In this document: positions 11,716 to 64,000 of the stretch, in pieces
Numbering within the stretch: position 1 is the stretch's first letter
Layout of the letters: each line of letters opens with the position of its first letter
Translations under genes and position numbers: made by a program
Assembly: GCA_021372615.1 (NCBI GenBank)
Contig: JAJFUB010000143.1
Location: 1 to 64,000, forward strand
Direction of reading: 5' to 3'
Length of the DNA stretch: 64,000 nucleotides
Origin: a bacterium
GTDB taxonomy: Bacteria; Armatimonadota; Zipacnadia; Zipacnadales; UBA11051
Notes under the pieces: generated by a model
What the model was told of the DNA's origin: nothing
The model's database searches: none
What the model saw: the letters and a program-made list of their open reading frames with translations, nothing else

Positions 11716-11744
11716 TTGACAGGCTACTTGGGTTGTGCGATACT
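11716..11744 (+). promoter_or_regulatory. Predicted sigma70-type promoter of [FeFe]-hydrogenase locus 1
   Basis: TTGACA (11716-11721) and GATACT (11739-11744) are separated by exactly 17 bases. The predicted start near 11751 leaves a leader of about 160 bases before hydA. The leader contains a perfect 8-bp hairpin (AGCGCGGG at 11786-11793, CCCGCGCT at 11803-11810) and the Rex-like operator. Confidence 0.65.
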
Positions 11745-11826
11745 CCACGCGGCCGGACCACCGGACAACCTGTCGGAAAGCTCTCAGCGCGGGCCATACT
11801 GTCCCGCGCTAAATATTGGGCCGAGC

Positions 11827-11844
11827 TTGTGACTTTTTTCACAA
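11827..11844. promoter_or_regulatory. Rex-like operator upstream of hydA
   Basis: TTGTGACTTTTTTCACAA matches the Rex consensus TTGTGAAnnnnTTCACAA at 13 of 14 fixed positions. Rex is a repressor released at high NADH/NAD+ and is known to control hydrogenase and fermentation genes in several phyla. The same site also contains a perfect TGTGA-N6-TCACA, so a Crp/Fnr-family protein is the main alternative. It lies about 80 bases downstream of the predicted start site, which would imply roadblock repression unless a closer promoter exists. Confidence 0.7.
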
Positions 11845-11910
11845 TGTAGCGGCCCGACCTTCCCGCGAACCCGCGCCCACCCCGGCGCACTCAGTAGTCA
11901 GGTGAACGAT

Positions 11911-13680
11911 ATGGCTGACGTTACCCTCACCATAGACGGCATCGAGGTTACGGTGCCGCAGGGCACTACCATCATGCAGGCCGCCGACCAGGTCGGCATC
12001 CGCATCCCGCGCCTGTGCTATCACCCGCGTCTCTCCATGGAGGGCGCTTGCCGGGTGTGCCTCGTGGACGCGGGGCTGCGCAACCTGGTCGCCTCGTGCT
12101 GCTACCCGGCTGAGAACGGGATGAACGTCAAGACCCACACCCCCGAGGTCCTGCGCCTGCGCCGCGACATCGTGGAGTTGCTGATTGACAACCATCCCGA
12201 GGACTGCAACTCGTGCGAGCGCGACGGCAACTGCGAGCTGCAGCGGCTGGCCGCGTCCATGGGCATTCGCGAGCGCGTCTTCGCCGGCTCCCGCAAGCGC
12301 TATGACAAGGACCTCTCCGGCCCGGCGATCCTGCGCGACCCCGAGAAGTGCGTGCTGTGCGGACGCTGCGTGCGGATGTGTGGCGAGGTCCAGGAAGTCG
12401 CGGCGCTGGGTCAGGTGCGGCGCGGCTTCCACACCGTCGTCGCCCCGGCGCACGAGGGTCCCATCAGCGAGAGCGTCTGCGTCGGCTGCGGCCAGTGCGT
12501 CAATGTCTGCCCGACGGCGGCCTTCCTGGAAGTGGACGGCACGCAGGACTTCCTGAAGGCCATCGAGGATCCCGACACCATCGTCGTCTCGCAGATGGCC
12601 CCGTCGGTGCGCGCGGCCATCGGTGAAGTCTTCGGCTACACCCCGGGCGAGTGCTGGGAAGGCGAGTCCTTCGCCGCCATGCGCCGCATGGGCATTGACT
12701 ACGTCTTCGACACCCAGTTCGCGGCCGACCTGACGATCATGGAAGAGGCCGCCGAGTTCGTCGAGAAGTTCAAGGCGGGGCGGCTGCCCAACATCACCTC
12801 CTGCTGTCCGACGTGGGTGAAGTTCTGCGAGCAGTTCCACCCCGATCTCCTCCCGCTGCTGTCCACCGCGAAGTCCCCGATGAGCATGCAGGGCGCCGTG
12901 GTCAAGTCGTACTTCGCCGAGAAGCTGGGCGTGGATCCCAGCCGCATCTTCTCGGTAGCGATCATGTGCTGCACCTGCAAGAAGGCCGAGGCGCAGCGCC
13001 CCGAGTTGTTCGTGGGCGACCTGCCCGCCGTGGACACGGTGCTGACCACGCGCGAGTTCGGCTGGCTCATCAAGCACATGGGCATTGACTTCCTGCACCT
13101 GAAGCCCGAGGCGCCGGACCATCCGCTCGGCGACTCCACCGGCGCGGCGGTCATCTTCGGCGCCACCGGCGGCGTGACTGAGGCCGCCCTGCGCACGGCG
13201 TACTGGATGATCACGGGCGAGGACCTCTCGCCGGTGGCCCTCGAGTTCCTGCCCGTCCGCGGGCTCAAGGGCGTGCGCGAGGCGACGATCAACGTGGCCG
13301 GCAGCGATCTGAAGATCGCGGTCGCCAGCGGTTTGGCCAACGCCAACGAGGTGCTCGCGAAGCTGAAGTCCGGCGAGATCCACTACGACTGGATCGAGGT
13401 CATGGGCTGCCCGGGCGGCTGCATCGGCGGCGGCGGCCAGCCGTATGCCGGGGCCAACGCCGTGCCGCTGGACGAGTGCCTGCTGCAAAAGCGCGGCGAA
13501 GCGCTCTACGCGCTGGATGGCGACCGGACCCTGCGCTGCTCGCACCACAACCCCGACATCCAACGGCTCTACCGCGAGTACCTGGGCGAGCCGCTGGGCC
13601 ACAAGTCGCACGAACTGCTGCACACGTATTACTACCCGCGGCTGCCCATGGGTGTGCGGCCGCAGGAGGCGCAGATCTAA
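11911..13680 (+). CDS. hydA: [FeFe]-hydrogenase catalytic subunit with altered H-cluster motif
   Basis: The 589-residue protein has the layout of a bifurcating HydA. It has an N-terminal [2Fe-2S] domain (C36, C47, C50, C63/64), a His-Cys [4Fe-4S] site (H95, C99, C102, C108), two ferredoxin clusters (C147-C157 and C190-C200) and the H-cluster domain. Motif L1 is TSCCPTW (296-302) with the proton-relay Cys298; L3 is EVMGCPGGCIGGGGQP with C500 and C504. L2 reads MCCTCKKAE (352-360) instead of the usual MPCTAKKFE, adding two cysteines at the active site. The start is the ATG at 11911 behind AGGTGA, not the GTG three codons earlier. It is the first gene of locus 1, 2 bp before hydC. Confidence 0.92.
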   Translation: MADVTLTIDGIEVTVPQGTTIMQAADQVGIRIPRLCYHPRLSMEGACRVCLVDAGLRNLVASCCYPAENGMNVKTHTPEVLRLRRDIVELLIDNHPEDCNSCERDGNCELQRLAASMGIRERVFAGSRKRYDKDLSGPAILRDPEKCVLCGRCVRMCGEVQEVAALGQVRRGFHTVVAPAHEGPISESVCVGCGQCVNVCPTAAFLEVDGTQDFLKAIEDPDTIVVSQMAPSVRAAIGEVFGYTPGECWEGESFAAMRRMGIDYVFDTQFAADLTIMEEAAEFVEKFKAGRLPNITSCCPTWVKFCEQFHPDLLPLLSTAKSPMSMQGAVVKSYFAEKLGVDPSRIFSVAIMCCTCKKAEAQRPELFVGDLPAVDTVLTTREFGWLIKHMGIDFLHLKPEAPDHPLGDSTGAAVIFGATGGVTEAALRTAYWMITGEDLSPVALEFLPVRGLKGVREATINVAGSDLKIAVASGLANANEVLAKLKSGEIHYDWIEVMGCPGGCIGGGGQPYAGANAVPLDECLLQKRGEALYALDGDRTLRCSHHNPDIQRLYREYLGEPLGHKSHELLHTYYYPRLPMGVRPQEAQI

Positions 13681-13682
13681 AG

Positions 13683-14219
13683 ATGCGTTACCAGCGCGAT
13701 ACTCTGGAACGGCCCGAATGGTGGCGGCAGCTCGACGAGTACATCGCCGAGCAGAAGCAGCGCAATGCCCAGCATGTGCAGAGCGCCCTGATCCCGGTGC
13801 TGCATCACGTGCAGGACACCTTCGGCTACGTGCCGGCCAAGGCCATCAACCATGTGGCCCAGCAGCTCGGCGTGCCGACCGCGTATGTCACCGGCGTGGC
13901 GAGCTTCTACTCGTACTTCTCGCTCACGCCCAAGGGTGTCTTCACCATCAGCGTGTGCCTGGGCACGGCGTGCTATGTGCGCGGCAGCCAGGCAGTGCTG
14001 GACGAACTGTGCCGGCAGCTTGACTGCAAGCCGGGCGAGACGACCGCCGACGGCCTCTTCACAGTCAAGGAGGCGCGCTGTCTGGGCGCCTGCGGGCAAG
14101 CGCCCGTGATGATGGTCAACGACGTGGTGTACGCCAAGGTGACCCCCGAGCAGATCCCGGGGATCCTGGCGCACCTGACCGCCGAGGCCCAGCAAGAGCC
14201 GACTCTCGCACCGGCCTAG
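13683..14219 (+). CDS. hydC: NuoE-like [2Fe-2S] subunit of bifurcating hydrogenase (HydC)
   Basis: The 178-residue protein matches the 24-kDa NuoE family. A helical N-terminal part with LHHVQDTFGYVPAKAI (about 40-55) is followed by a thioredoxin-like domain with the four cluster ligands C92, C97, C133 and C137 (VCLGTACYVRG and CLGACGQAP). In HydABC enzymes this subunit carries electrons next to HydB. The start codon lies 2 bp after the hydA stop, so translation is probably coupled. No missing ligand is seen. Confidence 0.93.
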   Translation: MRYQRDTLERPEWWRQLDEYIAEQKQRNAQHVQSALIPVLHHVQDTFGYVPAKAINHVAQQLGVPTAYVTGVASFYSYFSLTPKGVFTISVCLGTACYVRGSQAVLDELCRQLDCKPGETTADGLFTVKEARCLGACGQAPVMMVNDVVYAKVTPEQIPGILAHLTAEAQQEPTLAPA

Positions 14220-14257: not shown

Positions 14258-15400
14258 ATGGACATTCCGCTGCGCACTCGACTACAGGTTGGCTTTCTGG
14301 GCGTAGCCCTCGTGGGCGCCGCCCTCACTGCCGCCGGGGTGTGGCTGCTCGGCGGACAGTGGCACGGTGTGGGGGAAGGCCACCTGCCGCTGGGAGTCGT
14401 GTTGCTCAGCACGGTCCCCACGCTCATCATGGGCCTGGTGCTGGCCGGGGTGTTGGCCAACCGCCTCACCCGACGCATCCGGCTGGTGACCGGGGCCGCC
14501 GAACAACTGGAGCAGGGCAACCTGGAGGCGCGCGTACCGCAGCCGGCACACGCCGACCAGGACGAGTTGCGGCGGCTGCAAGTCATCTTCAACGAGATGG
14601 CGGCGGCTCTCCAGGAGCGCGACGATGAACTCCGCCAGAGCCACCAGCAACTGGCCGAGACGACCGAGCAGTTGCAGCAGTGGAACGCAGACTATCTGAG
14701 CACCCTGGCATTCATCACACACGAGCTCAAGAACCAGATCGCCTCGGCGAAGCTCAACCTGCTGGCCGTCCGCGACGGCTACGTCGGGGAGCTGAACCCC
14801 GACCAGCATGAGACGCTGGACGATGTGGTGCACACCGTCCACCGCACCGAGGACATGCTGCGCAACTACCTGAACCTCTCGCGCATCGAGAAGGGCGAGT
14901 TGCAGGTGCGGACGCGGCCGGTGCGGATCGGGAACGAGGTCGTCGCGCCCGTACTCCGGGAGCTGAAGGGCCGGTTCCACGAGCGGAACATGCACGTGGA
15001 GACCGATCTGTCGCCCGACCTGGTCACGCTGGGGGACCCGACGCTGCTGCAGACGGTGTATGAGAACCTGCTCACCAACGCCGCCAAGTACGGCCGCGAC
15101 GGGGGAACGGTCAAGCTGTGGGGCCGCCCGGTGAACGGGATGCTCGAGATGCACGTGTGGAATGAGGGCCCGGGGGTGGCCCCGGAGCAGTTGGGCGAGT
15201 TGTTCGGCAAGTTCTGCCGCCTGGCGCCCCCGGGCGAGGAAGCGCGGGGCACGGGACTGGGCCTGTTCATTGATCGGGAGATCGTACGCCGGCATGGGGG
15301 CGAGATTCACGCTGAGAGCCAGTATGGGGAATGGATTGACTTCGTGTTCACCCTCCCCCGACCGGACGAGATCTTGGCACCGCCGCCGGCCGCATTCTGA
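14258..15400 (+). CDS. Membrane sensor histidine kinase
   Basis: 380 residues. Two membrane segments (about 10-32 and 46-68) enclose only a short periplasmic loop, so there is no external sensor domain. They are followed by HAMP (about 68-120), a coiled coil, HisKA with FITHELKNQ (phospho-His155), the N box ENLLTNAAKYG and the G box GTGLGLF. The small loop suggests sensing in the membrane or through the adjacent hydrogenase subunits. It sits between hydC and hydB, 23 bp before a receiver-only response regulator, so the pair is embedded in the hydrogenase operon. Confidence 0.92.
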   Translation: MDIPLRTRLQVGFLGVALVGAALTAAGVWLLGGQWHGVGEGHLPLGVVLLSTVPTLIMGLVLAGVLANRLTRRIRLVTGAAEQLEQGNLEARVPQPAHADQDELRRLQVIFNEMAAALQERDDELRQSHQQLAETTEQLQQWNADYLSTLAFITHELKNQIASAKLNLLAVRDGYVGELNPDQHETLDDVVHTVHRTEDMLRNYLNLSRIEKGELQVRTRPVRIGNEVVAPVLRELKGRFHERNMHVETDLSPDLVTLGDPTLLQTVYENLLTNAAKYGRDGGTVKLWGRPVNGMLEMHVWNEGPGVAPEQLGELFGKFCRLAPPGEEARGTGLGLFIDREIVRRHGGEIHAESQYGEWIDFVFTLPRPDEILAPPPAAF

Positions 15401-15423
15401 AGCCCTGTGAGGGGTATGACGAC

Positions 15424-15819
15424 ATGAGCGACAAGCGCAGAGTACTGCTGGTAGATGATGATGTGGACTTCCTGGAGGCCAACCGTGTGGCCCTGGAGGC
15501 CCGGGGGTTCGAGGTGCTGACCGCCTCCGACTCGCGCCATGGTGTCGAAGTCGCCACCAGGGAGCATCCCGACCTCATCATCATGGACCTGATGATGGAG
15601 CGGCTCTATGCGGGCTTCTCGGCCGTGCAGGCCCTGGCGGCCCACGAGGCGACCGCGGAGATCCCCGTCATCATGGTGTCGGCCGTGACCACCGAGACCG
15701 GGTTCCGCGTGGACGACAAGGAGCAGCGGCCGGAGTGGCTGCGGGTCGTCGAGTTCATCAACAAGCCGATCGATCCCCTGGCGCTGGCGGACAAGGCCAG
15801 CGCCATCGTGGGTGCCTAG
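15424..15819 (+). CDS. Single-domain (REC-only) response regulator
   Basis: A 131-residue receiver domain with the acidic pocket DDD (11-13), phospho-acceptor Asp55 in LIIMDLMME, the Ser in IMVSAV and the Lys in FINKPID (about 115). There is no output domain. It may relay phosphate to another protein, compete as a sink, or act by protein contact. An insertion between beta4 and alpha4 (ETGFRVDDKEQRPEW) is longer than usual. Its place after the kinase gene makes it the cognate partner. Confidence 0.92.
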   Translation: MSDKRRVLLVDDDVDFLEANRVALEARGFEVLTASDSRHGVEVATREHPDLIIMDLMMERLYAGFSAVQALAAHEATAEIPVIMVSAVTTETGFRVDDKEQRPEWLRVVEFINKPIDPLALADKASAIVGA

Positions 15820-15880
15820 TAGCCACAGCAGTACGGTCGCGCCCGCCCCGCCCGCGGCGCGCACAGAGAGGATTCCGGAG

Positions 15881-17776
15881 ATGACCGCTCAGCAGAGCTT
15901 GCAGCAACTGGTGGAGGCCGTCGCACCCCAGGTCCAGGCGCGGGCCGGCAAGATCGAGGTCTTGTTGGGCATCGCCACCTGCTCGCTGGCCGGAGGCGCC
16001 GACAAGACCCTCACGGCCCTGCAGGAAGCCCTGGACGCCAGCAGCGTGAAGGACCGCCTCGACTTCCGGCAGGTCGGATGTGTGGGCCGGTGCAGCCTCG
16101 AGCCGCTGCTGGAGATCCGCCGCCCCGGCGAGCCGCCGCGCCTGTACGTCCAGGTGGACGCCGAGCGCGCCCGCGAGATCGTCAAGCGCGATCTGGGCGG
16201 CGGCGAGGCCATCCGCGAGTGGCTGATTGACGGCGGCGAGACGCCGTCCGTCGCCCCGGCCGGCGAAGACGAGATCATCAACCGCTTCACGCGCGATTAC
16301 CCGCACCTGGACTTCTTCAGCCGGCAGTTCCGCGTGGCCCTGCGCAACGTCGGCCGCATTGACCCCGAGAGCCTCGATGACGCCCTGTCGGTCGGCGCAT
16401 ACGCCGGGCTGGCCAAGGCGCTCGACGAGATAGCCCCGGACGAGGTCATCGCCACGATCAAGGCCTCCGGCCTGCGCGGTCGGGGCGGCGCGGGCTTCCC
16501 CACGGGCATGAAGTGGGAATTCACCCGCAAGGCTGCTGGCGACCTGAAGTTCGTCGTCTGCAACGCTGACGAGGGCGACCCGGGCGCCTTCATGGACCGC
16601 AGCACACTGGAGGGCGACCCCCATGCGGTGCTGGAGGCCATGGCCATCGCCGGGCACGCCATCGGCGCCAACCAGGGCTACATCTACGTCCGCGCTGAGT
16701 ACCCGCTGGCCGTCAAGCGCCTGAACATCGCGCTGGCCCAGGCCCGCGAGCGCGGCCTGCTGGGCCCGAAGGTGCTGGGCACCGACTTCGCCTTTGACAT
16801 CGAGCTGCGGCTGGGCGCCGGGGCCTTCGTGTGTGGTGAGGAGACGGCACTGCTGGCCTCCATCGAGGGCAAGCGCGGCATGCCGCGCCCGCGCCCGCCG
16901 TTCCCGGCCAACAAGGGCCTGTGGGGCAAGCCGACGGTCATCAACAACGTCGAGACCCTCGCCAGCATCGCGCCGATCATCCTCAAGGGCGCCGAGTGGT
17001 ATGCCTCCATCGGGACCGAGACCTCCAAGGGCACGAAGGTATTCGCCCTGGCCGGCAATGTGGTCAACACCGGCCTGGTGGAAGTCCCGATGGGCATGAC
17101 GCTGCGCGAGATCATCTTCGACATCGGCGGCGGCATTCCCGGCGGCCGGCAGTTCAAGGCCGCGCAGACGGGCGGACCCTCCGGTGGCTGCCTGCCGGCG
17201 GAGTATCTGGACACCCCCATTGACTACGAGTCGCTGCGCGCAGCCGGAGCCATCATGGGCTCGGGCGGCCTCATCGTCATGGACGACGGCAACTGCATGG
17301 TGGACATCGCCCGCTTCTTCCTGACCTTCACCCAGGACGAGAGCTGCGGCAAGTGCACCCCGTGCCGCGAGGGCACGATGCGCATGCTCGAGATCATGAA
17401 GCGCATCACCTCCGGCCGCGGCGAGGAGCGCGACTACGAGCGGCTTGAGCGCCTGGGCAAAGCCTGCACGCGCGGCGCGCTGTGCGGCCTGGGGCAGACC
17501 GCCCCCAACCCGGTGCTGAGCACGCTCCGCCACTTCAAGGACGAGTACGAGGCGCATATCAACGAGGGGCGCTGCCCCGCCCACAAGTGCGCGGCGCTCG
17601 TGCACTATGTCATTGACCCCGAGAAGTGCGTGGGCTGCGGTCTGTGCCGGCGCAACTGCCCGGTGAGTTGCATCAACGGCGAGCCGCGCCAGCCGCACGT
17701 CATTGACGACCAGGCGTGCGTGCGCTGCGGCACGTGCTTCGACGTCTGCCGCTTCGGCGCGATCCGGCGCGACTAG
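15881..17776 (+). CDS. hydB: NuoF-like flavin subunit of bifurcating hydrogenase (HydB)
   Basis: 631 residues. It has an N-terminal thioredoxin-like domain (about 1-100), then the FMN/NAD-binding core with GLRGRGGAGFPTG (about 196-208), the SLBB-type domain, the NuoF [4Fe-4S] site SCGKCTPCREG (about 488-498) and a C-terminal 2x[4Fe-4S] ferredoxin (about 580-628). The N-terminal domain shows only three plain ligands (C34, C67, C71) instead of four, so its [2Fe-2S] cluster may be absent or unusual. The ATG at 15881 is chosen over an upstream alternative overlapping the regulator stop, because the first domain begins there and GAGAGG precedes it. The flavin site is where NAD(P)H and ferredoxin electrons bifurcate. 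Confidence 0.93.
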   Translation: MTAQQSLQQLVEAVAPQVQARAGKIEVLLGIATCSLAGGADKTLTALQEALDASSVKDRLDFRQVGCVGRCSLEPLLEIRRPGEPPRLYVQVDAERAREIVKRDLGGGEAIREWLIDGGETPSVAPAGEDEIINRFTRDYPHLDFFSRQFRVALRNVGRIDPESLDDALSVGAYAGLAKALDEIAPDEVIATIKASGLRGRGGAGFPTGMKWEFTRKAAGDLKFVVCNADEGDPGAFMDRSTLEGDPHAVLEAMAIAGHAIGANQGYIYVRAEYPLAVKRLNIALAQARERGLLGPKVLGTDFAFDIELRLGAGAFVCGEETALLASIEGKRGMPRPRPPFPANKGLWGKPTVINNVETLASIAPIILKGAEWYASIGTETSKGTKVFALAGNVVNTGLVEVPMGMTLREIIFDIGGGIPGGRQFKAAQTGGPSGGCLPAEYLDTPIDYESLRAAGAIMGSGGLIVMDDGNCMVDIARFFLTFTQDESCGKCTPCREGTMRMLEIMKRITSGRGEERDYERLERLGKACTRGALCGLGQTAPNPVLSTLRHFKDEYEAHINEGRCPAHKCAALVHYVIDPEKCVGCGLCRRNCPVSCINGEPRQPHVIDDQACVRCGTCFDVCRFGAIRRD

Positions 17777-17954: not shown

Positions 17955-19553
17955 ATGCCAGAAGCTACCGCCAGCACAGCCCAAGTGACCCCCGTCCCGG
18001 CGCCGTCGGCGGCACGCCCCACGCACCAGATTCTGGTGCTGGATGACGAGTCCGGGATCCGGCGCGGCTGCCAGCGCGTGCTCGTCGCCGAGGGGCACGA
18101 GGTCTACAGCGTCGAGTCGGTGGAGCAGGCCCTGGAGACGCTGCGCCAGCATCCCGACATCGAGGTCGCGCTGGTGGACCTGCGGATGCCCGGCGGCCCG
18201 CCTGAGGCGCCGGACATGGGCGGGATGACCTTCCTGGCCGCCGCCCGCGACGAAGCCCCGCTGCTGGTGTGCAACGTCATCACGGCCTACGCGACCATCG
18301 AGACGGCCATGGAGGGGAGCCGGCGCGGGGCCTACGACTTCCTCGCCAAACCCTTCACCCCCGACGACCTGCTGCGACTGGTGAACAAGTCCCTGGAGCG
18401 GTCGCGCCTGCTGCGCGACCACCAGCGACTGGTATCCGAGCGCGAACGGCGCCTGCTGCAGCTCGCTACCGAGCAGAGCCGCCTGCGCGGCATCGTCAAC
18501 TCCATGGCCGACGCCGTGCTGGTATGCAACGCCGACGACGAGCTGGTCCTCTACAACCCGGCGGCGCTGCGCGTCATGCCCGCCCTGGCGCCCGGGCGGG
18601 AAGCCTATCCCCTCGCTGAGGTGCTGCAGTCCCCCGAACTGCTCGAACTAGTCCACGAGGCGGAGGCGAGTCACGGCCGCCTGTCGCGCGAGATCCAGTT
18701 GCCGGAGGCCCTGGGCGCCCAGTGGGTCTTGGCCAACGTGGCCCCGGTGGCCGAGGAGCAGGGCGCAACCTTCCTGGGCACTGTGACCGTGCTGCGCGAC
18801 ATCACCGAGCTGCGGCGCGTCGAGCAGGTGAAGGCGCAATTCGTCAACATGGTGGCGCACGAGCTGCGGGCGCCCCTGTCGGCCATTGATGGCTACTTGT
18901 CGGTGCTGTACGAGGGCCTTGTGCCCTCGGTGGCCAAGCAGCGGGAGATGATCGGGCGGTCGCGCCAGCGGCTGCGCGCCCTACTCGACCTGGTGAGCGA
19001 CCTGCTCGACGTGGCCCGCATGGAGGCCGGAACGGTGCGGCGGCAGATCCAGCCCCAGGAACCGGCGGCCATTGTGGGCGACGTGGTCGAACTGATGGCG
19101 CCCTCGGCCGCGCAGGCTCAGGTGCGGCTGGAGAACCAGGTGCCGGCGGGCCTCCCGCGCATCGAGGCCGACCGCGAGGAGTTGGTCCGGCTCTTCACCA
19201 ACCTGCTGAGTAATGCCATCAAGTACAACCGGCCGGGCGGGATGGTCAAGGCGTATGCCGTGGCCGAGGGGCCGTATGTCCGCTTTGATGTGGCCGACAC
19301 CGGCGTAGGCATCAGCCCCGAGGGTCTGCAGTCGCTGTTCTCCGAGTTCTTCCGGGAGAAGCGCCGCGAGACCGCGCAGGTCACGGGCACCGGCCTGGGC
19401 CTGAGCATCGTCAAGCGCATCGTGGACTTCTACCATGGGCGGATTGACGTGAAGTCCAGGGAGAACGAGGGGTCCACGTTCAGCGTCTGGCTGCCCCAGC
19501 AGCACGACTCGTCAACGCAGGCGGGCGAGGCCGCCACGGGTGACGCGACATGA
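17955..19553 (+). CDS. REC-PAS-histidine kinase hybrid
   Basis: A soluble protein of 532 residues. It has a Pro/Ala-rich start, a receiver domain (about 25-145, phospho-Asp75 in VALVDLRMPGG), a linker, a PAS domain (about 175-290 with GIVNSMADAVLVCNADDELVLYNP-like sequence), HisKA (VAHELRAP, His about 301) and an ATPase with LFTNLLSNAIKYN and GTGLGLSIV. The receiver has an inserted loop after the phospho-site (GGPPEAPDMGG). It may take phosphate from the membrane kinase at 14258-15400 and combine it with an internal PAS signal. Its stop overlaps the hydE start (ATGA), which ties it to hydrogenase maturation. Confidence 0.92.
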   Translation: MPEATASTAQVTPVPAPSAARPTHQILVLDDESGIRRGCQRVLVAEGHEVYSVESVEQALETLRQHPDIEVALVDLRMPGGPPEAPDMGGMTFLAAARDEAPLLVCNVITAYATIETAMEGSRRGAYDFLAKPFTPDDLLRLVNKSLERSRLLRDHQRLVSERERRLLQLATEQSRLRGIVNSMADAVLVCNADDELVLYNPAALRVMPALAPGREAYPLAEVLQSPELLELVHEAEASHGRLSREIQLPEALGAQWVLANVAPVAEEQGATFLGTVTVLRDITELRRVEQVKAQFVNMVAHELRAPLSAIDGYLSVLYEGLVPSVAKQREMIGRSRQRLRALLDLVSDLLDVARMEAGTVRRQIQPQEPAAIVGDVVELMAPSAAQAQVRLENQVPAGLPRIEADREELVRLFTNLLSNAIKYNRPGGMVKAYAVAEGPYVRFDVADTGVGISPEGLQSLFSEFFREKRRETAQVTGTGLGLSIVKRIVDFYHGRIDVKSRENEGSTFSVWLPQQHDSSTQAGEAATGDAT

Positions 19554-20563
19554 CGCCCATGACTGACCGGGAGCTGCGCGAACTGGTTGTGGCGGAGGGG
19601 CCGGCGGCGGCGGAGCTGCGCGCCGAGGCCGACCGGGTGCGCCGCGAGACCGTCGGCGACGACGTCTACCTGCGGGGGATTGTCGAGTTCTCCAGCCACT
19701 GTCGGTGCGACTGCGAATACTGCGGCCTGCGTATCAGCCACCGTGATCTCGCGCGGTTCCGCATGACCCCGGCGCAGGTGGTGACGGCGTGCCGCGACAT
19801 CGCCCGGTTCGGGTTCGGCACGGTCGTGCTGCAGTCCGGCGAGGATCCCTGGTGGACAACGCGCCGCGTGGCGGATCTGGTGACAGCCATCAAGGAGGAG
19901 ACACCGCTGGCGGTGACGCTGTCGCTGGGCGAGCGGGACACGTCGGACTACCGCCGGTGGCGCGAGGCCGGGGCGGACCGGTACCTGCTCAAGCACGAGA
20001 CGGCGAACCGCGAGCTGTACGAGCGGCTGCACCCCGGCGCTTCGTACGACCGGCGTCTGGCCTGCCAGGACGCGCTGTTTGACCTGGGCTACCAGGTCGG
20101 CTCCGGCTGCATCGTGGGCCTGCCGGGGCAGACGCCTGACGTCCTGGTGGAGGACCTGCGGCTGATCGAATCGCGCGGCTACCACATGTGCGGCCTGGGG
20201 CCACTGATCCCCCACCCGGCCACGCCACTGGGGGCGGTACCCGTCGGGTCGGTCGAGACGAGCCTGAACATGATGGCGCTGGTCCGGCTGCTGGTGCCCG
20301 ATATCATGTTGCCAGCCACCACGGCGCTGGAGACCGCCGAGCCCGGAGCGCGCGTGCGCGCCCTGCAGGGCGGGGCCAACATCCTCATGCCCAACCTCAC
20401 CCCCCGCCGGTTCGCCAGCTTCTACGACATCTACCCCGGCAAGAAGGCACCCCAGCTCACCCTCGCTCAGGAAGTCGAGCGGACGCTGGCGATCGCGCGG
20501 GCCGCTGGCCGGCCGGTCGGGTCCGGGCCCGGTCACAGCCGGCGCACTTCCTCAGGGACCTGA
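19550..20563 (+). CDS. hydE: [FeFe]-hydrogenase maturase HydE (radical SAM)
   Basis: The 337-residue protein has the radical SAM CxxxCxxC motif at C51, C55 and C58 (CRCDCEYC), the position and context typical of HydE. The family segments LQSGEDPWW, SLGERD and YLLKHET follow, and the LGPLIPHPATPL segment is characteristic. HydE acts on the organometallic precursor made by HydG during synthesis of the two-iron subcluster. The start overlaps the upstream kinase stop by 4 bp. hydG and hydF are not in this window. The additional Cys53 between the cluster ligands is unusual. Confidence 0.9.
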   Translation: MTPMTDRELRELVVAEGPAAAELRAEADRVRRETVGDDVYLRGIVEFSSHCRCDCEYCGLRISHRDLARFRMTPAQVVTACRDIARFGFGTVVLQSGEDPWWTTRRVADLVTAIKEETPLAVTLSLGERDTSDYRRWREAGADRYLLKHETANRELYERLHPGASYDRRLACQDALFDLGYQVGSGCIVGLPGQTPDVLVEDLRLIESRGYHMCGLGPLIPHPATPLGAVPVGSVETSLNMMALVRLLVPDIMLPATTALETAEPGARVRALQGGANILMPNLTPRRFASFYDIYPGKKAPQLTLAQEVERTLAIARAAGRPVGSGPGHSRRTSSGT

Positions 20564-56731: not shown

Positions 56732-56955
56732 GGCGCGACCCTCCCCGGGGTGGTGCGGGCTCACTCGTGATCTGACACGGTCAGGATAACAATGCGCCGG
56801 ACGGGAGGTTCCACCGGATGCGGGGCGCGCTCCGGCAAGAGTCCTGTAGACTGGCAGGCCGAACCGAACAGGCAGCGGGGCCGGGGACGTGCCGCCGACT
56901 TCTTTCTTTTCACACACCACAGGGGGGGCCTGCAGCCGTGCAGCCCAGGGCCCGC

Positions 56956-57030
56956 GTGGGCCGGGACATCCTGGACCGGCCCCCGACCGCAGCTCCTGCA
57001 GTGCAGGGGGGTAGGCAAGTAAAAGAAAAG
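56956..57030 (+). repeat. Direct repeat copy 1 with poly-G and A-rich tail
   Basis: Its first 26 bases are identical to 57341-57366. Then comes a short hairpin segment, GGGGGGTAGG and an A/G-rich tail (AAAAGAAAAG, ending 57030). Confidence 0.7.
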
Positions 57031-57127
57031 TACAGATATATATCTATATTATATTTTATTCCTGCATAGGAGGGGCTGGGGACATGCAGGCAGTGCTGGC
57101 CCGCGAGGGGAGAACGGGGGAGTGACT

Positions 57128-57411
57128 CTTTTCTCACACACCCACCCCCCGTTGCGCGGCGATGCAGGCGAGCGATCAGCGGCCGACGCTGAAGGCTATC
57201 CCCAGGCAGGGGGGTGTGGGAACGGGGTAGCCCGAGGTGCTGCGGGAGCCGCGTGGGACCGGCCGCGTGGGCCATGTATATATACACCCCCCCCAGGCAG
57301 CCCTGAGAGCGGCGGTTGCGGGCCAGGCCGGGAGAGCCGTGTGGGCCGGGACATCCTGGACCGGCCAGCAGCCGCTGCCCCGGCAGGGGGGGTAGGTGTG
57401 TGAGAAGAAAG
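57128..57411. repeat. Element with inverted purine/pyrimidine ends
   Basis: The left end CTTTTCTCACACACCCACCCCCC (57128-57150, described as a 23-base pyrimidine tract) is the inverse of the right end at 57386-57411. The shared core TTCTCACACACC(T/C)ACCCCCC differs at one position. The interior includes CATGTATATATACACCCC near 57272-57292 and the second copy of the 26-base repeat (57341-57366). The right end stops 10 bp short of the PP2C stop codon. Confidence 0.6.
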
Positions 57412-57421
57412 CTGCCGGGGG

Positions 57422-58570
57422 TCAGGCGTACTCGATGGTGACCAGCTTGCCCATCTGCCGGAGCTTCTCGGCCAGTAGGGGGACGATGTGGCTGCGGGTG
57501 AGTAGGCCGCGCTGGCGGAAGGTGATGTCGCCATGCGCCGGGTTGCGGGCCTGGCCGAACAGGAAGTGGATGCGGTCGGCGTCGCGCAGCAACTGCTGCA
57601 GCTCGGCCACGCCCGTCTCCTCCTCCAGCATGGCGGGGTCTTCGTCCAGCACGTTGTAGACCTGGTTGAGGGTGATGGCGCCCTCGGTGACCAGGTCCAC
57701 CTCGTCGAGGTAGTAGCGGGGCGGGGCCAGGTGGCTGGGAACGTCCTGCTGCACGGACAGCGGGTGGCCCAGGTAGTCGGCCACGATCTCGGCGGTGGTG
57801 GAGCCGGCCACGACCTTCCAGCCCTCCATGAGCAGGAAGCGGTGGACGATCTCGCGGTCCTGCATGCGGTTGGCGGGCGGGCCGGTAAAGATGTTGAGGG
57901 TCTTGCCCCGGCGCGCCAGCGCCATGGCCACCGTCACGTCGTCCCCGCCGACGCCCTCCCACAGGGCGCGGGCCCGCTCGTGGATGGCGCGGGGCAGCTC
58001 CCGCAGCGGCGTGCGCTCGGACAGCAGCTCGGTCAGGTGGTGCTGCACGCCCTCCACGCGCCAGCCCAGCCGCTGGCTCAGGCCCAGGCCCGCCTGCGTC
58101 ACGCCGTCGCTGACGACGATGAGGCCGTCGCCGGGCGCGAGCTGCAGTTGGGCCTCGCCGATGAGCGCGTTCTCGACGGTGTGGGTGCGCTGGGGCAACA
58201 GGGTGGCGTGGTTGGCGGTGACGAAGAGCGGCTGGGGCATCTCGTAGGTCAGCACCGTGGCCTGCCCGTCGTTGAGCACGCGGACGACGGTGAAGCAGGC
58301 GTACGGCAGGTCGGTGCCGCGCACGTGGATCATCTCGCGCACGAGGCTGGCAAAGGCCCGCCGCAAGGAGGCGCCCCCGCGCAGGGCCTCCAGCAGCCGC
58401 GAGGCGCACATCGTGGCCGCGAGGTTGGCCTTGATGCCCGAGCCCAGGCCGTCGCACAGCACGAGTGTCGTAGCCGCCGGCGAGCGGTCGGAGGCCACGA
58501 CATCCCCGCACGGGGAGCCGGGGTGCTTGGACGACTGGGCCTGCAGGATGTCTACGTGGGTGTAGGCCAT
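57422..58570 (-). CDS. SpoIIE-type PP2C phosphatase linked to sensory hydrogenase
   Basis: 382 residues. PP2C metal-binding motifs: VLCDGLGSG (Asp40), VVSDGVTQAG (about 158) and GGDDVTVAMA (about 212). The remaining 165 residues (from about GKTLNIFTGPP) form a second conserved domain seen in phosphatases next to [FeFe]-hydrogenase sensors. Such enzymes usually dephosphorylate an anti-anti-sigma-type or Ser/Thr-phosphorylated partner. It follows HydS on the minus strand. No clear ribosome-binding site precedes the ATG; the segment before it holds a poly-G motif (58590-58595). Confidence 0.88.
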   Translation of the reverse strand: MAYTHVDILQAQSSKHPGSPCGDVVASDRSPAATTLVLCDGLGSGIKANLAATMCASRLLEALRGGASLRRAFASLVREMIHVRGTDLPYACFTVVRVLNDGQATVLTYEMPQPLFVTANHATLLPQRTHTVENALIGEAQLQLAPGDGLIVVSDGVTQAGLGLSQRLGWRVEGVQHHLTELLSERTPLRELPRAIHERARALWEGVGGDDVTVAMALARRGKTLNIFTGPPANRMQDREIVHRFLLMEGWKVVAGSTTAEIVADYLGHPLSVQQDVPSHLAPPRYYLDEVDLVTEGAITLNQVYNVLDEDPAMLEEETGVAELQQLLRDADRIHFLFGQARNPAHGDITFRQRGLLTRSHIVPLLAEKLRQMGKLVTIEYA

Positions 58571-58589
58571 CGGTGTTCACTGCCCCGAC

Positions 58590-58618
58590 GGGGGGTACCC
58601 CTGTGAAAAAAGAAAAGT
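58590..58618 (+). repeat. Third copy of poly-G / A-rich motif upstream of phosphatase gene
   Basis: GGGGGGTACC then CTGTGAAAAAAGAAAAGTG, preceded by CCCCGAC. It resembles the right ends at 57386-57411 and 57006-57030 in sequence order (poly-G, TA, then A/G-rich), so the phosphatase gene is bracketed by two copies in the same orientation. Confidence 0.5.
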
Positions 58619-58690
58619 GAAGACAGAAGAGGGAAGGCCGGCGCGGGCCGGGCCCCACTGCTGCCAGTAGCGCGGGCCCCACGATCCTCC

Positions 58691-58715
58691 GTAGCGCGGG
58701 CGGCCTCGCCCGCGC
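58691..58715. repeat. One-arm nested-palindrome repeat, GGCTCGCC-core type
   Basis: GTAG followed by GCGCGGGCG-GCCT-CGCCCGCGC. It ends at the base next to the hydS stop codon. Confidence 0.75.
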
Positions 58716-60494
58716 TCACCGGGGCGTGTAGGTATCCCACAGCCAGTCGGACCCCTCGGCACTCCGCTTCTCCTCGTCCTCGCCGGTCAGCTCCACCAGG
58801 TGCTCCACCAGTTGCTCGCCCTGGGCGGTGCTTTCGCCGAGGAACTGGGCCATCTTCTGGGCCATGCTGAGCTGGTGTTCGAGCAACTCGCGCGCCTGGG
58901 TGAGGGTCTGGGCGCGCAGTTCGGTCAGCTTCTTCTGGCTGTCGTGGGTGGAGGTGACGTTGACGAAGATACCGGCGTACTGGTGCTCCTCGCGCAGTGC
59001 GTACATGATCTGGTGGGTGACCAGCTTGTAGCGATCGTGGCGCGCGGTCATCTCCACGATCTCCTCGGCGCCCGACGCGAGCCGCTCGAAGGGGTCGGGG
59101 TCCATTAGGTAGGAGATGGGCTTGCCCAGGCAAGCCTCCGAGCACATGAAGAAGCGCCGGAAGGCCGGGTTCATGGCGATGATGGTGAGGCGCTCGTCGA
59201 GGATCACGATGCCGTTGGGGCTGGTCTCGATGATGCGGTCGGTCCGCTGCTCGGCCAGGCGCCGCATGTACGGGATGCACATCTCGGGCTCGGCCATGCC
59301 GCGCAGGACCGCGATGGCCTTGTCGCGGCAGGAGTTGTAGCCGCAGGCCCCGCAGTTCAGCTCATCCTCGGGGGCGACCTTGCCCGTCAGTGCCAGGATG
59401 CGCTTGATCTCTTCCTCGCGGATCGGCTGATCGGCGTCGAGGCCGGCCGGGGTGAACTCGGTGCGCAGCGCCGGGCGGGCCGGGACCTCGCCCTCCGGGG
59501 TTCGGCCCTGGTGGTCGTGCGCATAGCCCATGAGGTCCTGCCGCCGGTCGTACACATTGGCGTCGCAGGTGATCGCCGGGCCGTTGATGCAGCCCTGGGC
59601 GCAGAACAGCGGCTCGATGATGACGGGGCGCGGGTGCTCCTTGAGGCTGTCGAGGGCGGCGCGGATCTCGTCTATGCCGGTCACCGGCACCACGTCCGCG
59701 GCGAGCAGGTCGGTGTTCAGATGGGAGGTGCGGATGCTGCCGCCGGTGACGGGGAAGAACCGCGCCTCGCCCTCCGGCTCGTCGTCGAAGTCACTTTCCT
59801 CGCAGGCAGCCAGCGAGATGCCCTCGCGCTCCATCCATTCGGCCAGCTCGCGGAAGGTCAGGACGCAATCCACCAGCCCGGCGAACTCCGGCCGGTCGGC
59901 CTCGGCCTTCTTGGCGACACAGGGGCCGATGAAGACGACCCCCGCCTGGGGGCCCAGCTTCTCCCGGATATGGCGGGCGTGGGCCATCATGGGCGAGACG
60001 ATGGGCGTGAGGCTCGGGACCAGCTCGGGGTCGTACTTCTCGACGTAGCTCACCACGGCCGGGCAGGCGGTGCAGACGTGCGCCCGGTCCGGCTGGTGGC
60101 GCACCAGCTCGGCGGTCATGGCCGCGACCTGGTAGGCGCCGATGGCCGTCTCGGCGATATGGCTGAAGCCCAGCTTGCGCAGGGCCGAGGGCAGCCGCTT
60201 GCGCTCCCAGTCCGAATACGCCGCCGCAAAGGAGGGGGCCAGCGATACGGCCACCGGCCGGCCCGAGCCGATGAGGCGCACGGCGCACTCGATGTCGTTG
60301 CGGAACTGCTTGGCGCCCTGGGGGCACTCGCGGATGCACGTGCCGCAGGCCAGGCAGCGCTCCGGCTCGACCATCGCCTGGCCCTTGTGCATCGAGATGG
60401 CCTTCACCGGGCAGACGCGCACGCAGCGGTAGCAGTCACGGCAGCGCGCCTTGTTCGTGAACACGACCTGATTAGGCGGACGCTCGGAGGTCAT
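58716..60494 (-). CDS. hydS: Sensory [FeFe]-hydrogenase with PAS domain (HydS, group C-like)
   Basis: 592 residues. A two-cluster ferredoxin domain (C18-C28, C47-C57) leads to a divergent H-cluster domain. L1 is CTACPAVV with Ala143 where catalytic enzymes keep the proton-relay Cys; L2 is GPCVAKKAEADR (C192); L3 is EPLFCAQGCINGP (C298, C302). A FeS domain (CGACGYNSC, C381, C384, C389, with C406) and a PAS domain (about 418-520) follow, then a coiled-coil tail. This is the organisation of sensory HydS proteins that report H2 to a downstream output. The PP2C gene 145 bp after it is the likely partner. Turnover is expected to be low. Confidence 0.92.
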   Translation of the reverse strand: MTSERPPNQVVFTNKARCRDCYRCVRVCPVKAISMHKGQAMVEPERCLACGTCIRECPQGAKQFRNDIECAVRLIGSGRPVAVSLAPSFAAAYSDWERKRLPSALRKLGFSHIAETAIGAYQVAAMTAELVRHQPDRAHVCTACPAVVSYVEKYDPELVPSLTPIVSPMMAHARHIREKLGPQAGVVFIGPCVAKKAEADRPEFAGLVDCVLTFRELAEWMEREGISLAACEESDFDDEPEGEARFFPVTGGSIRTSHLNTDLLAADVVPVTGIDEIRAALDSLKEHPRPVIIEPLFCAQGCINGPAITCDANVYDRRQDLMGYAHDHQGRTPEGEVPARPALRTEFTPAGLDADQPIREEEIKRILALTGKVAPEDELNCGACGYNSCRDKAIAVLRGMAEPEMCIPYMRRLAEQRTDRIIETSPNGIVILDERLTIIAMNPAFRRFFMCSEACLGKPISYLMDPDPFERLASGAEEIVEMTARHDRYKLVTHQIMYALREEHQYAGIFVNVTSTHDSQKKLTELRAQTLTQARELLEHQLSMAQKMAQFLGESTAQGEQLVEHLVELTGEDEEKRSAEGSDWLWDTYTPR

Positions 60495-60531
60495 GGGTGT
60501 TGTCCGTGGGCCCGTGGAATGTACGCAGCGC

Positions 60532-62541
60532 TCAGACAGCCACTGCGGCCAGTTGCGCCGTCAGGGCCGCCATAACCTTGTCTAGATTGGTCCGTTCCAG
60601 GATCTGCTCGCCGACGCGCACCGTCGGCCCGCGGTCGCAGCGCTCGAAGCAGAAGGTGGCCTTGACATCCACCTGGTCGGCCAGCCCCTCGTCCTCCAGC
60701 CGGTGGATCAGGGCGCGCAGCAGGTCCTGCGAGCCGCGCAGGTAGCAACTCGTCCCCACGCACACGCTGATCTGCAGCTTGTGCTGGGCGCCGCTGACCA
60801 GGTCCACGTCCTCATCCTGGATGCGCCGGCGGCTGTGGTAGCCGGTGTGCAGCAGCGCGTGCGCCTTGTGCCCGCCCACCTCGCCCAGAGTCGTCTGGTA
60901 GGCCTCCTGGACGTAGGGGTTCTCCTGCGCCTTGTGCAGTTGCAGCGTCTTGTCGGCCTCGTACAGGCCCGCGGCGCGGCGCTGCCGCACGTCATGCTCG
61001 AACGAGACGGGCTGCCCGGCCCCGCCGATGCAACCGCCGGGGCAGGCCATGACCTCGATCAGATCATACTGGCTCTCGCCGGCCTTGACCTGCTCGGCCA
61101 CGCGGCGGGCGTTGGCCAGTCCGTTCACCAGCGCGAGGCGGATGGTCTGGCCGTTCACTGTGACCTCCGCCTCGCGCAAGCCCTCCAGCCCGCGCACTTC
61201 GTGGAAGTCCACGGCCTCCAGCTTCACGCCGCCGAGCTTCTCGGCCGCCAGCCGCAGCACGGCCTCGGTGACGCCGCCGGTCACGCCGAAGATGACGCCC
61301 GCGCCGGTCTTGAAGCCCAGGGGCAGGTCCAGCGACTCGGGCTGCAGCTTGTTGAACTTCAGGCCGGCCTCGTCAATCATGTGAGCCAGTTCCTGGGTGG
61401 TCAGCACGAAGTCCACCTCCGGCACGCCGTCGTGGATGAACTCCGAGCGCTGCGCCTCGAACTTCTTGGCGGTGCAGGGCATGATGGAGACGATGACGAG
61501 GTCCTCGTTCGCTACGCTGAGCTGCTCGGGCAAGACCTCGCGGGCCAGCGCCCCGAACATCTGCTGGGGCGACTTGCACGAGGACAGGTGCGGCAGCAGC
61601 TCCGGGTAGTACTGCTCGGCGAACTTGATCCAGCCGGGGCAGCAGGAGGTGAACTGCGGCAGCTTGCCGCCCTGCGCCACCCGGCTGAGGAACTCGTTGC
61701 CCTCCTCGACGACCGTCAGGTCTGCGGCGAAGGAGGTGTCGAACACCTTGTCAAAGCCGAGGGCCTTCAGCGCCGCCACGATCTGGCCGGTGGTCACGAC
61801 GCCGGGCTCCAGGCCGAAGGCCTCGCCGAGGGCGACGCGGACGGCCGGCGCAATCTGGGCGACGACCTTCTTCTGCGGGTTGTGGAGCACTTGCCACACC
61901 GGCTCGACCTGTGACTTGGGGGTGATGGCGCCGGTGGGGCAGACGCTGGCGCACTGGCCGCAGTTGACGCACTCGACCTGCGCGAGGTCCTTGTCGAAGG
62001 CCGGGGCGACCTGTACGTGGGCGCCGCGATGCGTGAAGTCAATCGCGCCGATGCCCTGCACTTCCGCGCACATGCGCACGCAATCACCGCACAGCACGCA
62101 CTTGTTCGGGTCGCGCACCAGCGAGGGCGAGGAGGTGTCGAGCGGGAAGGCCGGCTGGGTGGCGTGGAAGCGCACCTGATCCAGGCCCAGCCGCCGCGAG
62201 ATGGCCTGCAGCTTGCAGGTGGCGCTCTTGGCGCACGTGGGGCAGGCCTGCTCGTGGTTGGCCAGCAGCAGCTCCACGGCGATCTTGCGGATCGCGCGGA
62301 TCTTCTCGTTGTTGGTCGTGATCTTCATGCCCGGCTCGGGGGCGGTGGAGCAGGAGGTGACGATGCCCCGGCCCTCGATCTCCACCAGGCACAGGCGGCA
62401 AGCGCCGTACACGCTCAACTCCGAGTGGTAGCAGAAGGTCGGGATCTCGATGTTGGCCTTGCGAGCCAGCTCGAGGACATTGGGCTCGCCCTCGATCGGT
62501 ACTTCCCGCCCGTCTATGATCGCGACATCCGTGCTCTTCAT
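60532..62541 (-). CDS. hydA: [FeFe]-hydrogenase catalytic subunit with C-terminal [2Fe-2S] thioredoxin-like fusion
   Basis: 669 residues. N-terminal [2Fe-2S] (C37, C48, C51, C64), His-Cys cluster (H96, C100, C103, C109), two ferredoxin clusters (C148-C158, C191-C201), then canonical H-cluster motifs: TSCCPGW (298-304), MPCTAKKFE (354-362) and EVMACPGGCIGGAGQP (C500, C504). The last 80 residues are a NuoE-like thioredoxin fold with C594, C599, C631 and C635, i.e. a HydC-type domain fused on. It lies between hydB and hydS, and the fusion may replace a separate hydC. Locus 1 HydA differs in motif L2. Confidence 0.93.
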   Translation of the reverse strand: MKSTDVAIIDGREVPIEGEPNVLELARKANIEIPTFCYHSELSVYGACRLCLVEIEGRGIVTSCSTAPEPGMKITTNNEKIRAIRKIAVELLLANHEQACPTCAKSATCKLQAISRRLGLDQVRFHATQPAFPLDTSSPSLVRDPNKCVLCGDCVRMCAEVQGIGAIDFTHRGAHVQVAPAFDKDLAQVECVNCGQCASVCPTGAITPKSQVEPVWQVLHNPQKKVVAQIAPAVRVALGEAFGLEPGVVTTGQIVAALKALGFDKVFDTSFAADLTVVEEGNEFLSRVAQGGKLPQFTSCCPGWIKFAEQYYPELLPHLSSCKSPQQMFGALAREVLPEQLSVANEDLVIVSIMPCTAKKFEAQRSEFIHDGVPEVDFVLTTQELAHMIDEAGLKFNKLQPESLDLPLGFKTGAGVIFGVTGGVTEAVLRLAAEKLGGVKLEAVDFHEVRGLEGLREAEVTVNGQTIRLALVNGLANARRVAEQVKAGESQYDLIEVMACPGGCIGGAGQPVSFEHDVRQRRAAGLYEADKTLQLHKAQENPYVQEAYQTTLGEVGGHKAHALLHTGYHSRRRIQDEDVDLVSGAQHKLQISVCVGTSCYLRGSQDLLRALIHRLEDEGLADQVDVKATFCFERCDRGPTVRVGEQILERTNLDKVMAALTAQLAAVAV

Positions 62542-62570
62542 GGTCGTGCTCCGTGGTTCTCAAACTCTTC

Positions 62571-62594
62571 GTAGAGCAGGCGGCTCGCCTGCCC
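62571..62594. repeat. One-arm nested-palindrome repeat
   Basis: GTAG followed by AGCAGGCGGCTCGCCTGCC between hydB and hydA of locus 2. It matches the right arm of the element at 25243-25290 at all but one base. Confidence 0.75.
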
Positions 62595-62611
62595 GGTCCC
62601 CGCGCCGTCTT

Positions 62612-64000
62612 CTAGATCCCGCTCACGGCGCCGAACTTGCAGGCCCGCGCGCACTCGCCGCACTTGATGCAGAGGGCCTCGTCAATCGTGTGCGGCTGCT
62701 TCTTTTCGCCGCTGATCGCCCCGACCGGGCACTTCCGGGCGCACGCCGTGCAGCCCTTGCACTTGGTCGGGTCAATGACCGGCATCGCCAGGGCCTTGCA
62801 CTGGCCGGCCGGGCACCGCTTCTGGATGACATGGGCCTCGTACTCGCTGCGGAAGTACCGCAGGGTCGAGAGCACCGGGTTCGGCGCGGTCTTGCCCAGC
62901 CCGCACAGCGAGCCGACGCCGACCGCCGAGGACAACTGCTCCAGCAGGTCGAGAGTGTGCTCGTCGGCGCGGCCCTGGGTGATGTCGTCGAGCAGGGCCA
63001 GCATCTGCTTGGTGCCCTCGCGGCACAGCACGCACTTGCCGCAGCTCTCGCTCTGGATGAAGGTCATGAAGTAGTGGGCCATCGAGACCATGCAGGTCTG
63101 CGAGTTCATGACCACCAGGCCCCCGGAGCCGACCATGGCGCCGACCCCGCGCAGGCTGTCGAAGTCCAGCGGCAGATCCAGGTGCTCCTCGGTCAGGCAG
63201 CCGCCGGAGGGGCCGCCGATCTGCACGGCCTTGAAGGCCTCGCCCGTCAGGCGGCCCGCGTTGTCCGTCACGCCGCCGCCGATGTTGTAAACGATCTCGC
63301 GCAGGGTCGTGCCGAATGGCACCTCGATCAGACCCGTGTTCGCCACGTGGCCGGTGAGGGCGAAGGTCTTGGTGCCGGGCGACTTCTCGGTGCCTCGGGC
63401 GCGAAACTCCGCCGCCCCCAGCCGCATGACCAGCGGCACGGTCGCCAGGGTCTCGACGTTGTTGATGATGGTGGGCTTGCCGCACAGACCGCTCTGGGCA
63501 GGGAAGGGCGGCTTGGGGGTCGGCATGCCGCGCTTGCCCTCGATCGAGGCGATCATCGCGGTCTCCTCGCCGCACACGAACGCCCCAGCGCCCTCCATGA
63601 CTTGCAGCCACAGGCTCCGGCCCGAGCCGAAGAGATCGTCACCCAGGAGGCCCAGGGCCTCGGCGTCGGCGATGGCCTTGCGGATACGCCGCACGGCCAG
63701 CGGGTACTCAGCCCGCACGTAGACATAGCCCGCATTGGCCTCGATGGCCCGAGCCGCGATCATCATGCCCTCGATGACAGCATGGGGGTTGCCCTCCATC
63801 AGGCTGCGGTCCATGAAGGCCCCGGGATCGCCCTCGTCGCCGTTGCAGATGACGTACTTGACGTCACTCTCGTTGGCGAGGGCCATCTGCCATTTGCGGC
63901 CGGTGGGGAACCCGGCGCCGCCACGGCCGCGCAGGCCCGCGACGAGGATCTCCTCGCAGACCGCGGCCGGGGCCAGCTCGGTGTAGCACCGGCGAGCGGC
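62612..64000 (-). CDS. hydB: NuoF-like flavin subunit of bifurcating hydrogenase (HydB), truncated by window end
   Basis: At least 462 residues; the 5' end lies beyond 64000. The visible part begins in the thioredoxin/NuoF linker, with GLRGRGGAGFPTG (63899-63937) for FMN, CNGDEGDPGAFMDR, the SLBB domain, the cluster ESCGKCVLCREG, and a C-terminal two-cluster ferredoxin (CKGCTACARKCPVGAIS, CIKCGECARACKFGAVS). It is a paralogue of the locus 1 HydB. No stop interrupts the frame up to the window edge. Confidence 0.93.
   Translation of the reverse strand, partial: AARRCYTELAPAAVCEEILVAGLRGRGGAGFPTGRKWQMALANESDVKYVICNGDEGDPGAFMDRSLMEGNPHAVIEGMMIAARAIEANAGYVYVRAEYPLAVRRIRKAIADAEALGLLGDDLFGSGRSLWLQVMEGAGAFVCGEETAMIASIEGKRGMPTPKPPFPAQSGLCGKPTIINNVETLATVPLVMRLGAAEFRARGTEKSPGTKTFALTGHVANTGLIEVPFGTTLREIVYNIGGGVTDNAGRLTGEAFKAVQIGGPSGGCLTEEHLDLPLDFDSLRGVGAMVGSGGLVVMNSQTCMVSMAHYFMTFIQSESCGKCVLCREGTKQMLALLDDITQGRADEHTLDLLEQLSSAVGVGSLCGLGKTAPNPVLSTLRYFRSEYEAHVIQKRCPAGQCKALAMPVIDPTKCKGCTACARKCPVGAISGEKKQPHTIDEALCIKCGECARACKFGAVSGI

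Follow-up and report, generated by a model that had tools for sequence, protein, structure and literature searches.

The leader of an [FeFe]-hydrogenase operon in a bacterium of the phylum Armatimonadota was found to carry a palindrome, TTGTGACTTTTTTCACAA, that is very probably an operator for the repressor Rex. Our best explanation of the data as a whole, which we regard as likely, is that Rex bound to this leader operator would act as a roadblock to RNA polymerase and would thereby place the hydrogenase under a control that is relieved by NADH. The operon lies in the window, by which we mean the whole stretch of 64,000 nucleotides that was analysed. The window is part of contig C143, and the genome concerned (G000; 6.4 Mb, 97% complete), which has its closest named relatives in the Armatimonadota, was searched by pattern and by protein family. 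A preliminary description of the window, made from its letters, had interpreted the palindrome as a Rex-like operator in the leader of a hydrogenase operon, and this interpretation is supported by the sequence comparisons reported here. Identification of the palindrome as a probable Rex operator rests on exact sites in the host genome, three in number and all at hydrogenase loci, taken together with the presence of Rex genes, the failure to find a PF00027 protein in the host and the conservation of the site at orthologous genes.

The palindrome and the hydrogenase operon

As claimed in the preliminary description, TTGTGACTTTTTTCACAA matched 13 of the 14 fixed positions of the Rex consensus TTGTGAANNNNTTCACAA, and for a match of this quality base composition predicts only about 0.0004 chance occurrences in 64 kb and 0.04 in 6.4 Mb. 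The accompanying statement that the site is an 18-bp palindrome except for one base holds within the 14 consensus positions, where there is a single departure, but fails over the full 18 bp, where six of the nine base pairs are symmetric; two perfect 6-bp arms flank an asymmetric 6-bp middle, CTTTTT. No second sequence in the window matched TTGTGAN6TCACAA without mismatch.

The operon downstream of the site (Table 1), in which hydA starts at the ATG at 11911, holds HydA together with NuoE-like and NuoF-like subunits, the subunit set of an electron-bifurcating [FeFe]-hydrogenase, although the class given to HydA is its NCBIfam name (NADH-dependent, group A6) and bifurcation is not a property that can be read from sequence. 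Genes for a histidine kinase and a receiver (14258–15819) and for a hybrid kinase (17955–19553) are interleaved with the hydrogenase genes, an arrangement that suggests a second signal input.

Table 1. Features of the hydA leader and the hydrogenase operon in the window.
Feature	Position in window	Strand	Basis
Predicted promoter: -35 TTGACA (11716–11721), 17-bp spacer with TTGTG, -10 GATACT (11739–11744)	11716–11744	+	Sequence; conservation in 8 genomes
Leader hairpin AGCGCGGG-N9-CCCGCGCT	11786–11810	+	Perfect 8-bp stem
Rex-like operator TTGTGACTTTTTTCACAA	11827–11844	+	13 of 14 fixed consensus positions
Likely ribosome-binding site AGGTGA	11900–11905	+	Sequence; 5 nt before ATG 11911
hydA, catalytic subunit, NADH-dependent [FeFe]-hydrogenase group A6	11911–13680	+	NF040763, 778.7 bits (cut-off 765)
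NuoE-like [2Fe-2S] subunit (true start within open frame)	13623–14219	+	TIGR01958, 3e-43
HAMP-type sensor histidine kinase, within operon	14258–15400	+	NCBIfam histidine kinase families
Receiver-only response regulator	15424–15819	+	NCBIfam response regulator families
NuoF-like (HydB) subunit with C-terminal ferredoxin domain	15812–17776	+	TIGR01959, 3e-148
Receiver-PAS-histidine kinase hybrid	17955–19553	+	NCBIfam histidine kinase families
hydE, H-cluster maturase	19550–20563	+	TIGR03956, 312.6 bits (cut-off 254.6)

Sites and Rex proteins of the host

Exact TTGTGAN6TCACAA sites numbered three in the 6.4-Mb host genome in comparison to about 0.03 expected, and every one of them was at a hydrogenase locus. 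In addition to the window site, the identical 18-mer was found at C18:10555 (L019 10555–10572), 46 nt before a second [FeFe] operon that encodes ferredoxin-like, NuoE, NuoF and HydA2 proteins, and the third exact site, at C19:11763, is flanked by hypA and by a gene for a HydG-like radical SAM protein (both named from their translations). The best explanation of these sequences would be a small hydrogenase regulon of one Rex that includes the window hydA operon, the second [FeFe] operon and the hypA/HydG-like locus. A long hairpin can also form in the leader at C18 of G000, with 20 nt between it and the 18-mer, although neither this hyd2 leader nor that of G275 passed the strict hairpin test, and both were left out of the hairpin counts given below.

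The preliminary description had made its interpretation depend on the presence of a Rex gene in the host, and two were found, both matching solved Rex structures (E ≤1e-31). One of them, at C143:65086–65826 just beyond the end of the window, heads a third [FeFe]-hydrogenase cluster (window 56913–64000, minus strand), a linkage that recurs in G254, G260–G262 and G209. Its product retains the two main DNA-contacting residues, has a changed wing (GIVGRPKVGY) and is a divergent paralogue. The other Rex gene, at C92:154604–155284, adjoins nuo-like genes and its product carries QVRKDLSYFGEFGRRG, in which the DNA-contacting residues of T. maritima Rex are kept. The C92 protein is favoured as the binder because genome G001 has the C92-type Rex only and yet keeps its sites, and on this comparison it is most likely the canonical Rex on C92 that binds the palindrome. 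A search of G000 with up to two mismatches revealed no Rex-type site near the third hydrogenase cluster or either rex gene except for one within a coding region on C92, and a site controlling that cluster or either rex gene was rejected on this ground.

Conservation of the site in the class and the phylum

The preliminary description had also staked its reading on conservation of the palindrome upstream of orthologous hydA genes, and such conservation was observed in other genera and families, with sites upstream of hydA orthologues in families f1–f4, f9 and f10. The right half of the site, TTTCACAA, was invariant in eight orthologous hydA leaders of f1–f3, and the left half-site was weak in five of these eight, all of them from f2 and f3. 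The sister genus (G002–G006) was without this HydA, without Rex and without an exact site.

A survey of 20 further genomes of the class identified 11 exact sites in comparison to none for the reversed control motif. By translation, nine of the 11 precede hydA, hyd2, hypA or a hypE/[NiFe] operon, and the remaining two were located before an HdrC-like gene and within a flagellar gene. Rex was present in 19 of the 22 genomes of the class that possess HydA in comparison to 8 of the 24 that lack it. Rex-type sites were also observed directly upstream of the TTGACA -35 element of hyd2 or hypA (L168 1990, L165 10395, L176 7070, L186 4380 and L181 6635), a placement that is odd for a repressor.

Across 291 Armatimonadota genomes the exact motif occurred in 72 of 153 with Rex and in 16 of 138 without it (p = 2.6e-11, a value to be taken as a guide only, as related genomes are not independent). 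Exact sites numbered 115 versus 5 control sites in the genomes with Rex, and 17 versus 7 in those without. In G257, G258 and G271 the motif was present and no Rex was detected; the assemblies of these genomes are 84–91% complete. Genomes of family f29 (G185–G194) mostly have a Rex gene and none has the exact site; the Rex of this family may read another sequence.

Order of promoter, hairpin and site

The elements of the predicted promoter put the predicted transcript start at approximately 11750–11751 and TTGTGACTTTTTTCACAA thus at approximately +77 to +94, in agreement with the earlier estimate of about 80 bases past the start. The perfect 8-bp hairpin that had been noted near the site is present, 16 nt upstream of it. 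The leader position had been called unusual, and the same order of predicted promoter, hairpin, 16–23 nt, site and gene recurred in eight genomes from three families (f1, f2 and f3, the window's genome included), which upholds the observation. An exact TTGACA with 17-bp spacing was found upstream of orthologous hydA in seven of the eight genomes, in seven leaders a distance of 118–133 bp separated this promoter from the centre of the site downstream, and the f1–f3 leader sites were mostly at approximately +77 to +107 from the predicted start, with site ends at approximately +92 to +107. The same promoter–hairpin–site order was found at hypA of G274. Families f4, f9 and f10 differed in that the hydA site overlaps the -10 element or comes immediately after it, as is usual for a repressor. 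TTGTG, or a sequence close to it, is present in the promoter spacer beside the -10 element (window 11733–11738, and the corresponding place in the other f1–f3 leaders) and may represent either an extended -10 or the remains of a half-site.

All eight f1–f3 leaders had a hairpin score of -12.7 or stronger, in comparison to the 3–6% of random places in the same genomes that reach -12. The stems (AGCGCGGG, AGCGGACTG, GGCTGGCCG and GGCCGGCTGAGA) differ in sequence with their pairing kept, a covariation judged by comparison of stems rather than by a formal score, as MAFFT leaves the f1 hairpins unaligned with the rest. Because the stem sequences vary while pairing stays, the leader stretch between promoter and site appears to be transcribed. 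Individual leaders depart from the common form. In G262 the site is further down a leader that is about 150 nt longer and that has two site-like stretches, each behind a potential hairpin, as if a hairpin–site unit had been duplicated, and in the hydA leader of G001 (L053, C24 ~61030–61100) the hairpin, located 16 nt ahead of the site, runs into TTTTTT in the manner of an intrinsic terminator.

That every Rex-type site has a hairpin nearby was rejected as a general rule, as the phylum-wide rate of such hairpins (2 of 62 directions) was that of the background (2.8%), and the promoter–hairpin–site order is therefore a feature of this lineage. A known riboswitch or leader RNA was likewise rejected; the Rfam search gave no family above threshold, and the sole match, which was on the other strand, reached 20 bits where the gathering score is 33.

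Mechanism and alternative explanations

By analogy with known repressors, we favour with some confidence the reading that Rex acts by roadblock on transcription from the conserved upstream promoter. At low NADH, Rex with NAD+ would bind the leader DNA 77–94 bp downstream of the predicted start and would halt RNA polymerase that is already past the promoter, which is a transcriptional roadblock. A rise in NADH would release Rex and allow the NADH-linked [FeFe]-hydrogenase operon to be made, and surplus reductant would then leave as H2. We infer Rex binding, the direction of control and roadblocking from Rex elsewhere and from roadblocking repressors. Weighing against the explanation as a whole are the weak left half-site in five of the eight f1–f3 leaders, the occurrence of the motif in G257, G258 and G271 with no Rex detected, and the lack of such a site at the third [FeFe] cluster even though a rex gene heads it.

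Two alternatives concern the palindrome itself. Its arms fit the consensus of a CRP/FNR-type activator (TGTGAN6TCACA) as well, and a site for such a regulator was the main rival for the motif; it is removed by the finding that no CRP/FNR-type protein with the cNMP-binding fold (PF00027) matched in the 97%-complete host, in a search that did match in 10 of 14 control genomes. As TTGTGA is followed by A in 81 of 144 half-sites, in keeping with the Rex consensus, and as the motif tracks Rex, the probability that we leave to a CRP/FNR operator is close to nil. A further reading, in which TTTCACAA acts at the RNA level, for instance through base-pairing to the ribosome-binding site, and the palindrome is incidental, is very improbable. 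Several leaders do have a GUGAA in the ribosome-binding site with which UUCAC could pair, and the left half is degenerate in some leaders, but G001 has GGAGAA at its ribosome-binding site and still keeps the site, other families have the full palindrome at the promoter, the identical 18-mer precedes the second operon, and no Rfam family reached its threshold.

The remaining alternatives accept Rex and concern the geometry of the leader. An ordinary Rex operator would simply cover a second, closer promoter located between hairpin and site, as would be suggested by the -10-like AAATAT directly after the hairpin, by an AT-rich stretch at this place in most of the eight leaders and by the sites of families f4, f9 and f10, which overlap the -10 or come just after it. 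We consider this unlikely but worth retaining, as no conserved -35 was found at the right distance, the conserved promoter is the upstream TTGACA one, and hairpin pairing despite changed sequence implies that the hairpin is transcribed. The role of the hairpin may be mRNA stabilisation, a pause or assistance to the roadblock. The view that operator and hairpin are unrelated, with Rex roadblocking or repressing and the hairpin merely stabilising the 5' end of the mRNA, falls just short of an even chance; neither the stem sequences nor the loops are conserved, a U tract is absent from most of the hairpins and hairpins occur at background rate near Rex-type sites elsewhere in the phylum, but against this the hairpin-to-site distance is 16 in both f1 genomes and 20–23 in f2 and f3, and the order recurs at hypA of G274. 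Conversely, hairpin and Rex operator could form one evolved device in this Armatimonadota order, in which a polymerase stalled by Rex with NAD+ would be held or released by the hairpin just upstream, a proposal that we put forward as speculative and rather doubtful.

Comparison with known systems and significance

In Caldicellulosiruptor, FeFe and NiFe hydrogenases and hydG are already known to be controlled by Rex; the parts of the Caldicellulosiruptor bescii study used here describe a Rex regulon with the consensus TTGTGAANNNNTTCACAA in which FeFe and NiFe hydrogenase genes and hydG are under Rex (PMC6391272). The window host has this consensus and the hydrogenase targets in common with C. 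bescii and belongs to another phylum. The same parts of that study treat the C. bescii sites as promoter sites and describe no leader position or hairpin, whereas the window site is in the leader (PMC6391272). T. maritima Rex with NAD+, in the sections of the report drawn on here, occupies a TM0201 operator of which one half is strong (ATCACAA) and the other weak, and its DNA-contacting residues are the same as those of the host C92 Rex (PMC8836258, 7WB3). The TM0201 operator is thus one-sided, like the f2 and f3 leaders with a weak left half, while the window site has two strong halves; those sections report no leader hairpin for TM0201, in contrast to the window leader (PMC8836258). Roadblocks by LacI, PurR, CcpA and CodY, as outlined in the portions of the literature cited, involve a repressor that is bound downstream of the start and stops elongating polymerase, the polymerase then often being removed by Mfd (PMC10310618, PMC4132739). 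These portions do not name Rex as a roadblock protein, and the window adds a leader hairpin at a near-constant distance before the site. Our literature search found no paper combining Rex and hydrogenase for Armatimonadota and nothing on a roadblock together with a leader hairpin. What is new is the occurrence in this phylum, together with a leader position for the site and a hairpin at near-constant distance from it.

In summary, the analysis would add the Armatimonadota to the phyla in which [FeFe] and [NiFe] hydrogenase genes are under NADH-responsive control, and it gives a testable regulon. Comparison within one class can trace the change in location of the site, which is at the promoter in f4, f9 and f10 and in the leader in f1–f3. 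If the leader position works as it looks, it would provide a natural example in which Rex targets polymerase during elongation, and the hairpin at near-constant distance would, if this is true, link roadblocking to leader RNA structure. Should hairpin and operator indeed be a joint device, the NADH level would set the conditional termination of hydrogenase transcripts and, in G274, of hypA transcripts.
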